From contig CANDSI010000050.1 in the NCBI GenBank assembly GCA_947388575.1, positions 1 to 7,575 on the forward strand: a stretch of DNA of 7,575 nucleotides, in the 5' to 3' direction. How positions within the stretch are numbered: position 1 is the first letter of the stretch; each line of letters starts with the position of its first letter. The DNA comes from an uncultured Mycoplasma sp. (lineage in GTDB: Bacteria; Bacillota_I; Bacilli_A; RF39; UBA660). This document shows, one piece after another, positions 41-4,577 of the stretch. Both the position numbers and the translations under genes were made by a program. The notes beneath the pieces are model-generated. The model was not told where the DNA came from. It saw only the letters and a program-made list of their open reading frames with translations, and did not search any database.

Positions 41-595
41 TTAGAACTGTTGCTTTATTTTATCTATAACTTTTGTTTCAGTTTGAACTATATATGCTTT
101 TGAAAGTCCTAACATTGCACCCACTTCTTCAGGAGTTCTTTCTATCCCACTTTTGATTCCAAAACGAAGCTCTATAATTTGCTTATCTCGTCCCCACAAT
201 GTATCATAATATTTCTCTATAAGCTTCCTATTAAATTTAAAATCTACATCTGGCTCTTTTTGATTTTCTTGCTTAACTTCTTCCACAAACTTTCCTGTTT
301 CTCTACATATATAATGTTCTATAGAAGAATGTATGTCTTCTTCAAACATTTTCTTAAATTCTTTTGGTGTAATTTTTGTTTTTTTCGCACTCATATCTAA
401 AACTTCGTCTATTCTATCTTTAATTGCACGACATAGACCTAATTTTCCCATAATAATTAAAACTTCTTTATCCAAATCATTTTCTTTTTTATACTTATTA
501 ACTATATGCTCCACCAAGTCATCTAATTGCTTTATATCTTCTTGGGTAAAATTTAGCCTTTTTTCTAATTCTTTTAGTTGTTCATCTATTATCAT
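41..595 (-). CDS. Sigma-70 region 4 protein, small sigma-like factor
   Basis: 184 aa. Residues about 130-182 look like sigma-70 region 4.2: a GRDKQIIELRFG segment, then RTPEEVGAMLGLSKAYIVQ, corresponding to the RpoD pattern RExxVLxLRFG...RTLEEVGxxFxVTRERIRQIE. In sigma factors this helix-turn-helix contacts the -35 element. Residues 1-95 are paralogous to the N-terminus of the 319-aa protein two genes upstream (shared pattern LNFTxEDxxQLxDLxxHIVxKYxKE) but have lost most of the region 2 signature after residue 60. The ATG start follows AGTAGGTAATAAC, nearly the same leader as precedes the 319-aa gene, so the duplication includes the translation signal. The gene lies 16 nt after the 251-aa gene and is probably co-transcribed. 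A sigma-like or activator role is well supported by region 4; promoter targets are unknown. Confidence 0.88.
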   Translation of the reverse strand: MIIDEQLKELEKRLNFTQEDIKQLDDLVEHIVNKYKKENDLDKEVLIIMGKLGLCRAIKDRIDEVLDMSAKKTKITPKEFKKMFEEDIHSSIEHYICRETGKFVEEVKQENQKEPDVDFKFNRKLIEKYYDTLWGRDKQIIELRFGIKSGIERTPEEVGAMLGLSKAYIVQTETKVIDKIKQQF

Positions 596-611
596 GTTAT
601 TACCTACTTTA

Positions 612-1367
612 TTATCTATTTTTTCTTAATTGCATACATAATTGATTATATTCTTGTTGTGTGATCATTTCATCTTTTAAAAGCTGTTTATATCTACTCA
701 TTTTTTCATATATTTCTTCTAACTCAATTTCTGTTGTCATATTTTCAGTTTTATAACTCCAAACTTTTGAAGATGTTTCTGATATTTCTCGTTCTTCAGA
801 TGTATCATTATTTTTACTTGTACTAATATTGTTCTTATTATTGATATTTAAATTATGTATATTTCTATCTTTATAATATTCATCTACCTCATGTTCACCA
901 GTTGTATTTAGTATTTTATCAGTATTCTCTAGTATTTGCAATATATTGTCCATATAGTCTCCAACTTCATAAAGCGTAATAATCCTTATTTGTGACTGTT
1001 GTAATCTTGTTTTGTTTTCTTCTATATATGACTCAACCATTTCTTGTGCTATTCTAATAAAATCAAAACTTCCATTAATTATTATTATCTGTTCTTTTGC
1101 TATATTGCTATCCAACTCTTCTTTTATGCTTTCCAAGTTTTCACTCGTTTTCCATTCTATGTCATTAAGAAACTCGTTTTTTAGTTTAAGTCCTAAGATA
1201 TATACTCTAATTGTCGTTGTTATTTCGTTTTCTAATATTGTAGTAACTTTTACATCTTTTTTTAATATTTTTTCAAGATATAGTAATATAATAGTAGCAA
1301 ACTGAAGCTTTGTTGCATAAAAGCTAGATATTCTTATGATATTTGATGTATTTTTATTATTATCCAA
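612..1367 (-). CDS. X-domain protein with C-terminal SHOCT-like motif
   Basis: 251 aa. The start is TTG, preceded by GGGAGGAG with a 9-nt spacer. Residues about 9-155 form an alternating alpha/beta domain (strands near NIIRISSF, VKVTTIL, IIIINGS and IRIITLY) that is clearly paralogous to residues 108-255 of the upstream 319-aa protein. I do not recognise this domain. Residues 217-249 (LEEIYEKMSRYKQLLKDEMI...EYNQLCMQL) fit the SHOCT pattern, a short C-terminal helical motif usually seen as a tail on other domains. An Asn-rich insert at about 163-198, absent at that place from the paralogue, resembles the paralogue's linker between its sigma-like part and the X domain. There is no sigma-like N-terminus, no signal peptide and no membrane segment. 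It sits between the two sigma-like genes, which suggests a partner or modulator of them (inference). Confidence 0.85.
   Translation of the reverse strand: MDNNKNTSNIIRISSFYATKLQFATIILLYLEKILKKDVKVTTILENEITTTIRVYILGLKLKNEFLNDIEWKTSENLESIKEELDSNIAKEQIIIINGSFDFIRIAQEMVESYIEENKTRLQQSQIRIITLYEVGDYMDNILQILENTDKILNTTGEHEVDEYYKDRNIHNLNINNKNNISTSKNNDTSEEREISETSSKVWSYKTENMTTEIELEEIYEKMSRYKQLLKDEMITQQEYNQLCMQLRKNR
675..737. repeat. Direct repeat, copy 1 (SHOCT coding region)
   Basis: This 63-nt stretch matches 1479-1541 with one mismatch (position 723 against 1527), and the first 48 nt are identical. It encodes the conserved EEIYEKMSRYKQLLK part of the SHOCT-like tail. Weaker similarity extends through the rest of both genes, including an identical 20-nt block at 627-646 and 1431-1450. 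This reflects a gene-segment duplication rather than a mobile repeat. Confidence 0.9.
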
Positions 1368-1409
1368 TTAATTTCGCTCCTCCCATTATACCTCAAGAAG
1401 ATATTTCAT

Positions 1410-2369
1410 CTATTTTTTTAATGTTTCTTTTAATTGCATACATAATTGATCATATTCTCTTTGTGTAATTACTCCATTTTTTAAAAGCTGTTTATATCTA
1501 CTCATTTTTTCATATATTTCTTCTAAATCAATTTCTGTTGTTTCATTTTCAGCTTTATGATCCAAAACTTTTGAAAATACTTCTGATATTTCTTGTTCTC
1601 CTGATGTATTTAATACTTTATCATTATTTTTTATTATTTGTTCACCATATTCTATAAAATCATTATTGTTATAAAGTGTAATAATTTTAATTTTCGATTT
1701 TTCTAATTTTGTTTGCTTCTGTTTTATATATACTTGTACTATTTTTTGTACCTTCTGAATAAATTCTCTCCTTCCATTTATTATTATCATTTGTTCTTCT
1801 GCAATATTGTTATCTAGTTTTTCGATAATGTTTTCTATTTCTGATTGTTTAATTGGTTTCCACTCTACATCTAATATTTTTGTATTGGTATTCCTCATTT
1901 GAGCAAAGTCAACCATCTCTTTTATTTCATCTTCTAATATTGTAGCCACCTTTACTTTATGCTCTAATGCTTCTTCTAAATATGGTATGAGAAATGAAGC
2001 TAAATGTATATTTGATACATAACTACCAAATATTTTTATAACATTAGAAGTCTCTCTATCTCCAATTTCTTTTATATTTTTACTTGTACAAACATTTTTC
2101 CTATTATTTCTTTTTATACAAGCTAATATTTTGCCCTCTATCCTCCATTGAGCATATTCCTCTAACGAAACCCTCTTTTCTATATTAAAGGTATGAATTG
2201 CCTCATATATTGCTATTTTTCCTATTCTGTTTAATTTTTCTCTATTCCAATTAACTTCTTTCTCATATTTTTCAACTATATGTGTTAGCAAATCTTTTAA
2301 TTGTTGCACATCTTCTCTTGTAAAATTTAGTTCTATTGCTCTTTCCTCTATTATTTCATCCATCACCAT
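1410..2369 (-). CDS. Sigma region 2-like / X domain / SHOCT-like fusion
   Basis: 319 aa. Residues about 22-91 resemble sigma-70 region 2: GKIAIYEAIHTFNIEKRVSL then EEYAQWRIEGKILACIKRNN, comparable to the family pattern GxIGLIKAVDKFDPxxxxxFxTYAxWWIRxxIxR. Region 2 normally binds core RNA polymerase and the -10 element. No region 4 follows. Instead residues 108-255 form the unrecognised alpha/beta domain shared with the next gene (strands at VIKIFG, VKVATIL, MIIINGR and KIKIITLY), and residues 282-315 form a SHOCT-like tail. ATG starts occur at codons 1 and 3; AGTAGGTAG, which contains the stop codon of the previous gene, is the likely Shine-Dalgarno sequence. The gap to that gene is 4 nt, implying translational coupling. 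The region 2 assignment rests on pattern reading and is good but not certain; the architecture is unfamiliar to me. Confidence 0.85.
   Translation of the reverse strand: MVMDEIIEERAIELNFTREDVQQLKDLLTHIVEKYEKEVNWNREKLNRIGKIAIYEAIHTFNIEKRVSLEEYAQWRIEGKILACIKRNNRKNVCTSKNIKEIGDRETSNVIKIFGSYVSNIHLASFLIPYLEEALEHKVKVATILEDEIKEMVDFAQMRNTNTKILDVEWKPIKQSEIENIIEKLDNNIAEEQMIIINGRREFIQKVQKIVQVYIKQKQTKLEKSKIKIITLYNNNDFIEYGEQIIKNNDKVLNTSGEQEISEVFSKVLDHKAENETTEIDLEEIYEKMSRYKQLLKNGVITQREYDQLCMQLKETLKK
1479..1541. repeat. Direct repeat, copy 2 (SHOCT coding region)
   Basis: Partner of 675-737, lying 804 nt away in the same orientation. The DNA identity here is much higher than in the X-domain part of the two genes. 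That points to recent gene conversion or to strong constraint on the tail. Confidence 0.9.
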
Positions 2370-2373
2370 TTTA

Positions 2374-2736
2374 CTACCTACTTACTTTTTTTATTTTCTG
2401 GTTTTCTAATATAGATATAATCTCTACACCATTATTTTTTATTACATCTGTTATTTCCATTAATTTTGACAATTCAATTTCATTTGGTGCCTTATATAAA
2501 TGACTAATATGATCTACTAATAAAATATCAAATTCCTTTTTCTGAATTTTTTCCATCATACTATTTAAAGCTACTCTATCTTTTCTTGAACCAATATCAA
2601 TATAGAATACAAGGTTCTCTTCTTTTACTCCAAAATAACTAGCAGCATAATTTATGATACTCTTCTTATGTTCTTCTATTCTTTTAATATCATTGACACT
2701 ATAAAAAATATACCCTACTATTCTTTTTCCTTCCAA
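2374..2736 (-). CDS. Degenerate serine-recombinase N-terminal domain protein
   Basis: 120 aa. The whole protein corresponds to the resolvase/invertase catalytic fold: GYIFYSVND at the start, YIDIGSRKDRVALNSMM in the middle, then DILLVDHISHLYK and VEIISIL. Aligned without gaps to gamma-delta resolvase, Ser13 matches the nucleophile Ser10 and Arg54 matches Arg45. However, Arg8 becomes Phe11, Asp67 becomes Ser78, Arg68 becomes His79 and Arg71 becomes Lys82. The protein stops where the long E helix and DNA-binding domain would begin. It is therefore unlikely to recombine DNA. It is an intact ORF in an apparent operon, 14 nt after the XRE gene and 4 nt before the sigma-like gene, so it is probably a repurposed protein rather than debris. 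The start is TTG, with AAAGGA upstream; no ATG is available. Confidence 0.8.
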   Translation of the reverse strand: MEGKRIVGYIFYSVNDIKRIEEHKKSIINYAASYFGVKEENLVFYIDIGSRKDRVALNSMMEKIQKKEFDILLVDHISHLYKAPNEIELSKLMEITDVIKNNGVEIISILENQKIKKVSR

Positions 2737-2750
2737 ATGTATTTTCCTTT

Positions 2751-3140
2751 CTATAATTTAGTTTTATCCTCAGTTATTTTTTTGAACTTAGGATAAATAG
2801 CAATAATTACATCTTTAATTGTTTCTAGTTCACACTCATTACATCTAGCTATAATATTTTCTATTATTTCTTTGTCAGAATATTCCTGTTTTACATCCAT
2901 TTCTTCATGTTTACCATATAGCAACTCGTTAGGTGAAACTCGTAATGCTTGGCAAACTTGATGTAGTGTATGTACACTACAACTCTTGTTTCCTTTCTCT
3001 AGTTCATTCACGTAAGATTCAGAACGATTAATCATTTCCGAAAATTTCTCTTTAGGTAATCCTATTTTTTCTCTATTATTTTTCACTCTTTCTCCAAAGC
3101 TTCTCCAGTCTGTATATTCGTATCTATCTACTTTCTCCAT
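2751..3140 (-). CDS. XRE-family HTH transcriptional regulator
   Basis: 129 aa. A Cro/C1-type helix-turn-helix occupies residues about 16-75: FGERVKNNREKIGLPKEKFSEMI, then NRSESYVNELEKGNKS, then TLHQVCQALRVSPNELLYG. The C-terminus (about 88-117, IIENIIARCNECELETIKDVIIAIY) is the helical tail often found on clostridial regulators of this kind and may mediate dimerisation. The ATG start is preceded by GGAGG at 3153-3157 with a long 12-nt spacer, and that spacer forms one arm of an inverted repeat. It is the first gene after a 147-nt gap and probably opens a transcription unit running to position 41. It is a likely autoregulator of that unit (inference). Confidence 0.93.
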   Translation of the reverse strand: MEKVDRYEYTDWRSFGERVKNNREKIGLPKEKFSEMINRSESYVNELEKGNKSCSVHTLHQVCQALRVSPNELLYGKHEEMDVKQEYSDKEIIENIIARCNECELETIKDVIIAIYPKFKKITEDKTKL

Positions 3141-3896: not shown

Positions 3897-4202
3897 TTAA
3901 TTCTTTTTTCTTAAGATAATATATTCCTTGAAATTAATAATCTCTATAATATCTTTTTCTTTCCAGCCTAATTTTTCTCTTAACACTGCACTAATTTCCA
4001 TTCTTCCCAATCTATCAAGTTTCTCGTTGGACCAATTATCCATAGCACCATAACTAATTACTAAACATCCTTCAATTATTTGGTATACAATTTCATCTGA
4101 AGTAGCACTTCTATATTCTACTGGAATAGTAATTCTTCCTAATTCATCTATTTTTCTTTTTTTGCTTTTCGCTTCATTTAAAAACTTTATTAATTCTTCC
4201 AT
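3897..4202 (-). CDS. Protein with two SpoVT/AbrB-like repeats
   Basis: 101 aa. Two AbrB-like segments lie in tandem. The first is residues about 14-50 (KRKIDELGRITIPVEYR, then VYQIIEGCLVI). The second is about 60-99 (KLDRLGRMEISAVLREKLG, then KEKDIIEIINFKEYIILRK). The AbrB DNA-binding module is a swapped-hairpin barrel normally made by two chains, so two copies in one chain could make a single-chain pseudo-dimer. The first copy is atypical after EYR and the second has MEIS instead of VVIP, so DNA contacts may differ. AAGGAG lies 12 nt before the ATG and the gap to the AbrB gene is 20 nt, so the two are co-transcribed. It probably binds DNA or modifies its AbrB neighbour. Confidence 0.85.
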   Translation of the reverse strand: MEELIKFLNEAKSKKRKIDELGRITIPVEYRSATSDEIVYQIIEGCLVISYGAMDNWSNEKLDRLGRMEISAVLREKLGWKEKDIIEIINFKEYIILRKKN

Positions 4203-4222: not shown

Positions 4223-4480
4223 CTATTCTTTCTCTATTTGGATATTAGATAATTTTTCTAAGCATTTACTACAAACAAGTTTCTCTTTATACTCAACTAA
4301 TTTTTTAGAACTTCCACAAAAGATACAATTAGGCTCGAGTTTTTTCAAAACAATATTATAGCCATCTACAAATATTTCAATAGGATCCTTTTCAGCAATG
4401 TCGAATTTGTTTCTCAATTCAACTGGAATTACAACTCTTCCCAAATCGTCAACTCTTCTAATGATGCCTACACTTTTCAT
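4223..4480 (-). CDS. abrB: AbrB-type transition-state regulator with CxxC/CxxC tail
   Basis: 85 aa from the ATG at 4480. Residues 1-50 match the AbrB DNA-binding domain closely: MKSVGIIRRVDDLGRVVIPV, ELRNKFDIAEKDPIEIFVDG and IVLKKLEPN, against MKSTGIVRKVDELGRVVIPI in Bacillus. Instead of the Bacillus C-terminal dimerisation region it has Cys52, Cys55, Cys70 and Cys73 in a CxxC-14-CxxC zinc-ribbon-like arrangement, as in other clostridial AbrB-like proteins. The frame extends to a GTG at 4492, but that GTG lies inside the Shine-Dalgarno region (AGAGGAGTG), and the family N-terminus begins at the ATG. The gene heads the leftward cluster behind a strong promoter and is divergent from an XRE gene. 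AbrB proteins repress or tune many genes and commonly autoregulate; here it may control the element itself. Confidence 0.92.
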   Translation of the reverse strand: MKSVGIIRRVDDLGRVVIPVELRNKFDIAEKDPIEIFVDGYNIVLKKLEPNCIFCGSSKKLVEYKEKLVCSKCLEKLSNIQIEKE

Positions 4481-4547
4481 TTTAGTTTTCACTCCTCTCT
4501 ATTAGATTTTATAAAAACTATAATGTTTCTCCGATTTTGTTTATAAA

Positions 4548-4577
4548 ATTATACAACGTATCTATTGTCCGTGTCAA
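4548..4577 (-). promoter_or_regulatory. Sigma-A promoter for the abrB-headed leftward cluster
   Basis: On the minus strand, TTGACA (4572-4577) and TATAAT (4548-4553) are both perfect consensus hexamers with an 18-nt spacer. Transcription would start near 4541, giving a leader of about 60 nt before the abrB ATG. A small dyad, CAAT-GTTT-ATTG (4575-4586), overlaps the -35 element and could be an operator. Confidence 0.85.

Follow-up and report, generated by a model that had tools for sequence, protein, structure and literature searches.

The locus described here belongs to a mobile element of a gut spore-forming bacterium. The element may either possess a split system of promoter recognition for itself or disturb the sporulation switch of its host, and the question it raises is how two of its genes, whose products hold different parts of a sigma factor, are to be read. 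The open reading frames of the window, by which we mean the whole stretch of 7,575 nucleotides analysed, recur on contig CANDRW010000024.1 (29,449 bases; uncultured Clostridium assembly, G001), which encodes the 319-aa protein considered below at 100% identity. Five genes, all of them open frames, stand in a tight series on the minus strand in the order of a 129-aa Xre-type helix-turn-helix (HTH) regulator (2751..3140), a 120-aa serine-recombinase catalytic-domain protein (2374..2736), the 319-aa protein (1410..2369), a 251-aa MEDS-like and SHOCT-like protein (612..1367) and a 184-aa SigK-related protein (41..595), separated by 14, 4, 42 and 16 bases. The two sigma-like genes, those for the 319- and 184-aa proteins, thus share a strand and flank the 251-aa gene, as expected from the single leftward series of the original prediction. 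The 251-aa gene has a TTG start, directly 5' of which the stretch GGGAGGAG was read from the sequence. The 120-aa protein consists of the serine-recombinase catalytic domain alone, without a DNA-binding part, and has a relative at the same position in L085. No promoter was found for the 319/184 pair; a sigma-A-type match (12/12, 18-base spacer; 4548..4577, minus strand) lies upstream of the AbrB-like genes at 4223-4492 and 3897-4202, and an Rfam search of the window gave no match. The first of these AbrB-like proteins ends in a four-cysteine stretch with a weak match, below cut-off, to the anti-sigma factor Gin (PF10764, E 0.025).

The 319-aa protein is a chimera of sigma region 2, a MEDS-like domain and a SHOCT-like tail. 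Residues 15-90 (2100..2327, minus strand) form a region 2 of the SigE/SigK type, including regions 2.3-2.4, and the closest relative among the host sigma factors compared is SigE. Residues 59-118 score 66 against SigE regions 2.3-2.4 and 38 against SigG, neither of which was reached by any of 2000 shuffles. Scored singly with a profile of SigK alone, both pieces of this region 2 stay below their shuffles (6.5 against 7.2 and 5.0 against 6.1), and where the host EDLI motif has its aspartate, K stands here, E in P0002, the sole other fusion protein found, and V in the 184-aa protein. Region 4 was not found; the region-4 profile of SigK gives the full-length protein -0.6 bits, and no region-4 family is matched. 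The original prediction of a region 2-like segment without region 4 is therefore upheld, and a structural match of the N-terminus to sigma region 2 is present. Weak sigma stretches within the MEDS-like part, one to SigH (iE 0.02) and one to an ECF sigma factor (iE 0.0008, whole-protein E 0.11), were taken as chance matches.

The 184-aa protein holds the complementary part. Its region 4 (residues 118-184; 44..244, minus strand), with an HTH, is clear at 54.9 bits on the SigK profile, as had been predicted. The decay of region 2 claimed alongside it is only partial; regions 2.1-2.2 (residues 27-59; 419..517, minus strand) are kept at 15.6 bits, against 8.3 for the best of 500 shuffles, and it is regions 2.3-2.4, the part that reads the -10 element, which are unrecognisable and gave no match to the SigK sub-profile. 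The corresponding segment scores 20, 16, 14 and 14 against SigK, SigE, SigG and RpoD of the same genome, values reached by 416, 1699, 1676 and 1459 of 2000 shuffles, respectively, and pLDDT falls below 50 across most of residues 65-93 of the model. An alternative alignment, in which residues 91-113 follow an insertion and pair with regions 2.3-2.4 of the 319-aa protein, scores 28 (reached by 33 of 2000 shuffles) and is a weak hint that we did not adopt. A frameshift behind the missing part was considered and rejected, the other two frames giving 21 and 26 against 28 in the frame used (raw scores without shuffles). From residue 26 to 184 the protein aligns end to end with complete SigK-type sigma factors of the family at approximately 29-35% identity, and SigK is its closest relative among the host sigma factors compared.

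To judge from their sequences, the two genes look like diverged duplicates. The N-terminal pattern said to be common to both products proved real, with 47% identity over the first 58 residues, and in this shared stretch dN (0.39) is below dS (0.66). The same holds for the MEDS-like parts of the 319- and 251-aa proteins (dN 0.33, dS 0.73). The 319-aa protein and P0002 agree at 66 of 76 positions in region 2 (87%), which makes it roughly as well conserved as the MEDS-like part (136/160, 85%), and at 30 of 40 positions in the tail (75%); together with the dN below dS, this conservation of region 2 speaks against free decay. The upstream bases lend no support to duplication. An apparent shared leader 5' of the two genes was rejected, as 169 of 2000 shuffles reach its score and four other upstream pairs in the window are equal or better, and it runs partly into the ends of the genes before them. 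The case for duplication is one of coding similarity, so that the odds of the readings weighed below are unchanged by this rejection.

About 70% of the 319-aa protein is its MEDS-like domain (residues 106-267; 1569..2054, minus strand) and SHOCT-like helical hairpin (residues 280-319; 1413..1532, minus strand; pLDDT 80-97 by blocks), a combination which the 251-aa gene encodes alone. The predicted model of the MEDS-like part looks KaiC/RecA-like, a fold to which the MEDS domain is related. We use only the name MEDS-like because the matches to PF14417 (MEDS) are weak; with E values up to 1 accepted, 12 of the 22 members of the family give one (best E 0.001), as many match UCR_6-4kD, a short family with no relation to it (best 0.013), and the 319- and 251-aa proteins themselves gave no match to PF14417, the gathering score not being reached. 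PF09851 (SHOCT) likewise stays below cut-off in the 319-aa protein (E 0.0011, 19 bits against a gathering score of 27), and is annotated in the database entry of P0003.

The fusion of these parts to a sigma region is rare. A database search with the 319-aa protein returned four proteins, namely itself, P0002 (on a contig of 1,452 bases) and two which cover just 63% and 50% of it, and a search with the 184-aa protein returned itself only. The 319-aa protein is found on three database contigs and the 184-aa protein on five, although these may stem from one sample assembled more than once. With a profile, 512 proteins were found at E <=1e-8; among the best 120 of these, P0001 and P0002 alone are longer than 300 aa, and the rest are stand-alone forms of 170-215 aa. 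Among the matches listed for 292 genomes of the family, G001 alone has region 2 and the MEDS-like part within one open frame, and one of 30 genomes in a genus sample, again G001, has a match at 1e-27. Scans of viral contigs with the 319-aa, 184-aa, primase-like and 120-aa proteins gave no relatives, and in the literature searched neither a fusion of sigma region 2 to MEDS nor a split sporulation sigma factor was found.

The stand-alone MEDS-like gene is chromosomal in the bacterial family of the host, where it keeps close company with spoIIR. Of 29 loci fetched (L015-L043), chosen as those of the best matches to the 319-aa protein and not at random, 26 have it divergent from spoIIR, and the divergent pair of G001 itself lies at L012:7076-8751 (G001:C19). 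The gene is present in 258 of the 292 sampled family genomes, all of them among the 262 with spoIIR; four genomes (G074, G154, G184, G236) have spoIIR without it, none shows the reverse and 30 have neither (lists compared by hand), a tie which may be inflated by incomplete assemblies in which neighbouring genes are lost together. As expected of incomplete assemblies, some of the 30 (e.g., G082, G085 and G155) have SigK-type matches. In a class sample the MEDS-like gene occurs in nine of 291 genomes, seven of which overlap the family sample; the other two (G366, G560) have no spoIIR within the fetched stretch. A literature search found no paper mentioning spoIIR and MEDS together. SpoIIR is the signal upon which SpoIIGA activates pro-SigE (PMC13174948), and for actinobacteria it has been hypothesised that MEDS regulates SigB negatively (PMC11507031). 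The genes for both SpoIIR and SpoIIGA are present in the host genome. The chromosomal sigE of the host (L013:5378-6058, G001:C27) loses its frame within region 4 and continues in the other two, with either an assembly error or a real loss as the cause.

That the locus sits on a mobile element, as the original prediction had it, is supported by the genes of the element contig, which include a tyrosine recombinase, an ArdC-like protein, a recombination-directionality-factor-like protein and a DnaG-type zinc-finger protein, here called primase-like. The contig also carries two Spo0A-like response regulators, each with receiver and Spo0A_C domains (L001:13681-14376, L011:14026-14775), and the window has two AbrB-like and three Xre-type HTH genes. 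The primase-like protein has matches in 32 of the 292 family genomes, G001 included, and relatives were compared in 20 stretches around such matches from 18 genomes plus eight stretches beside five of these, i.e., 28 in all. Gene order in the replication part is common to the relatives. No half-sigma was found in any of the 28, of which just L085 and L115 show a tyrosine recombinase like that of the element and hence the slot beside it, and of which L112 is about half masked; the 319/184 pair is known from one element. In L085 a recombinase-domain gene is followed by merely a 66-aa HTH gene where the 319-, 251- and 184-aa genes stand in the window, and in L115 the recombinase is preceded by three genes of 108-115 aa. 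Small genes (108-135 aa) stand several in a row before the recombinase at L085:14012-14768 and L115:16537-17673, and a 110-aa gene that looks similar by eye is found at L086:3031-3363. As the first scan of the relatives used the SigK profile, which is blind to ECF sigma factors, a second was added, and it revealed one ECF-type sigma factor in each of five stretches (L086, L099, L102, L112, L114) and a weaker match in L118. Three weak partial sigma matches (E 0.005 to 0.01) were rejected, two (L102, L103) being opposite in strand to the primase-like gene and the third being a NUDIX protein (L117:7315-7770).

The best single reading, to which we assign a probability of roughly 0.4, is that the 319- and 184-aa proteins form a two-subunit sigma factor derived from a duplicated sporulation-type sigma gene. 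A SigE/SigK-group gene on the mobile element would have been duplicated; one copy, the 319-aa gene, would have retained the complete region 2 and received the MEDS-like/SHOCT-like protein in place of its region 3-4 half, whilst the other, the 184-aa gene, would have retained region 4 and regions 2.1-2.2 and lost the part that reads the -10 element. Acting jointly on RNA polymerase, the 319-aa protein would then open the -10 element and the 184-aa protein read the -35 element, with the MEDS-like and SHOCT-like parts gating activity by a signal tied to sporulation and the 251-aa protein serving as partner or competitor. This reading is supported by the complementary sigma content of the two proteins, measured piece by piece, by their homologous N-termini and common gene series, by the conservation of region 2 and by the precedent of a known two-subunit sigma factor. 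However, regions 2.1-2.2 of the 184-aa protein would be unneeded by a pure region-4 subunit and could compete with the 319-aa protein for its site on the polymerase; the related stretches hold ECF-type sigma factors and no half-sigma; and the pieces of the 319-aa region 2 lie at shuffle level on the SigK-only profile, with the EDLI aspartate replaced in both proteins. Of the split sigma factor first proposed, the sister proteins, the complementary content and the common series stand, but the 319-aa protein is not merely half of a sigma factor.

As the MEDS-like and SHOCT-like part is tied by its neighbourhood to spoIIR, there is a rival of nearly equal weight, which we hold to be a serious if tentative possibility, namely that the 319-aa protein is no working subunit and instead presents a SigE-type region 2 to the host machinery as a mimic or decoy. 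By analogy with PhyR, it might occupy the polymerase clamp or soak up a regulator of SigE, such that host sporulation is delayed or redirected, and the 184-aa protein might do likewise through region 4. The spoIIR association described above, the activation of pro-SigE by SpoIIGA upon SpoIIR in a host with both genes, and the proposed action of MEDS on SigB all fit such a role, as do the Spo0A-like and AbrB-like pairs on the contig and the cut in spore yield reported for phage-borne sporulation sigma factors (PMC10294663). The retention of regions 2.1-2.2 in the 184-aa protein and the spoIIR-neighbour domain on the 319-aa protein also sit less well with a split sigma factor. A decoy, however, needs no segment to read the -10 element, yet such a segment can still be recognised in the 319-aa protein and is 78% identical (25/32) to its counterpart in P0002, and a sister protein with the opposite half is left unexplained.

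It is unlikely that the two proteins do unrelated jobs, the 184-aa protein being a divergent small sigma factor or region-4 transcription factor, alone or with a host sigma factor, and the 319-aa protein a sensor with an inherited region 2. The end-to-end alignment of the 184-aa protein with complete SigK-type sigma factors and its retained regions 2.1-2.2 agree with this, as do the ECF-type sigma factors in five of the 28 related stretches, but the two proteins share an N-terminus and a gene series and, with regions 2.3-2.4 unrecognisable, the 184-aa protein alone could hardly open a promoter. Decaying remnant genes, or frame errors in the metagenome assembly, are very improbable, since despite the broken chromosomal sigE in the same assembly the other frames of the 184-aa gene do no better against regions 2.3-2.4 of the 319-aa protein (compared without shuffles), five genes are open in series with dN below dS where compared, and both proteins recur on several contigs, even if these may come from the same sample.

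The nearest known arrangement is that of SigO (sigma 4) and RsoA (sigma 2), both of which are required and form a two-subunit sigma factor (PMC8103513, PMC10028694). As in that system, regions 2 and 4 are on separate neighbouring proteins in a Gram-positive bacterium. Unlike SigO/RsoA, the present pair has homologous N-termini, a region-2 protein with a MEDS-like and SHOCT-like part and a region-4 protein which keeps regions 2.1-2.2, and it sits on a mobile element. SigE and SigK are the closest host relatives, yet each protein of the pair is without one essential part of a complete sigma factor. ECF sigma factors with C-terminal extensions, such as ECF41 and ECF42, keep both sigma 2 and sigma 4; the 319-aa protein resembles them in joining a sigma part to a C-terminal regulatory domain, but here the added domain occupies the place of region 4. 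It is also like PhyR, described in PMC8103513 as a response regulator with a sigma-like domain of ECF structure acting as a sigma mimic, in linking a sigma-like domain to a signalling domain, and unlike PhyR in that this domain is MEDS-like and the sigma part is region 2 only. To MEDS (PF14417) the likeness lies in the weak family matches and perhaps in the KaiC/RecA-like model, whereas the stand-alone chromosomal form beside spoIIR and the fusion to sigma region 2 are differences.

If the two-subunit reading is true, this would be a further way to split a sigma factor, in which the subunits are still recognisable sisters and a sensor-like domain stands in place of region 4. A further step, which we consider rather doubtful, is that region 2 of SigE has, in the MEDS-like protein encoded beside spoIIR, a partner not recognised before, which the element has captured into a signal-gated split sigma factor so as to usurp or exploit the sporulation switch. 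The prediction would then be that the MEDS-like protein, whose gene accompanies spoIIR in this family of spore-forming gut bacteria, binds SigE region 2.

Phages are reported to carry sporulation sigma and spo0A genes (PMC10294663), and the present element resembles them as a mobile element with sporulation regulators. It is unlike them in that the phage Spo0A homologues described there lack a receiver domain, which both Spo0A-like regulators on the element contig have, and in that its sigma copies are incomplete. At the nucleotide level the window gave no match to phages and only short AbrB matches to plasmids (2% of the window), and the primase-like protein matches five phage records at <=31% identity. 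A conjugative coupling protein is encoded beside one relative (L118), so that conjugation is a possibility for some of the relatives. In a second related element of G001 (L117:11513-18046, G001:C8), a reverse transcriptase-like protein is followed by two very similar 740-aa proteins, an arrangement which, by eye, recalls a diversity-generating retroelement.
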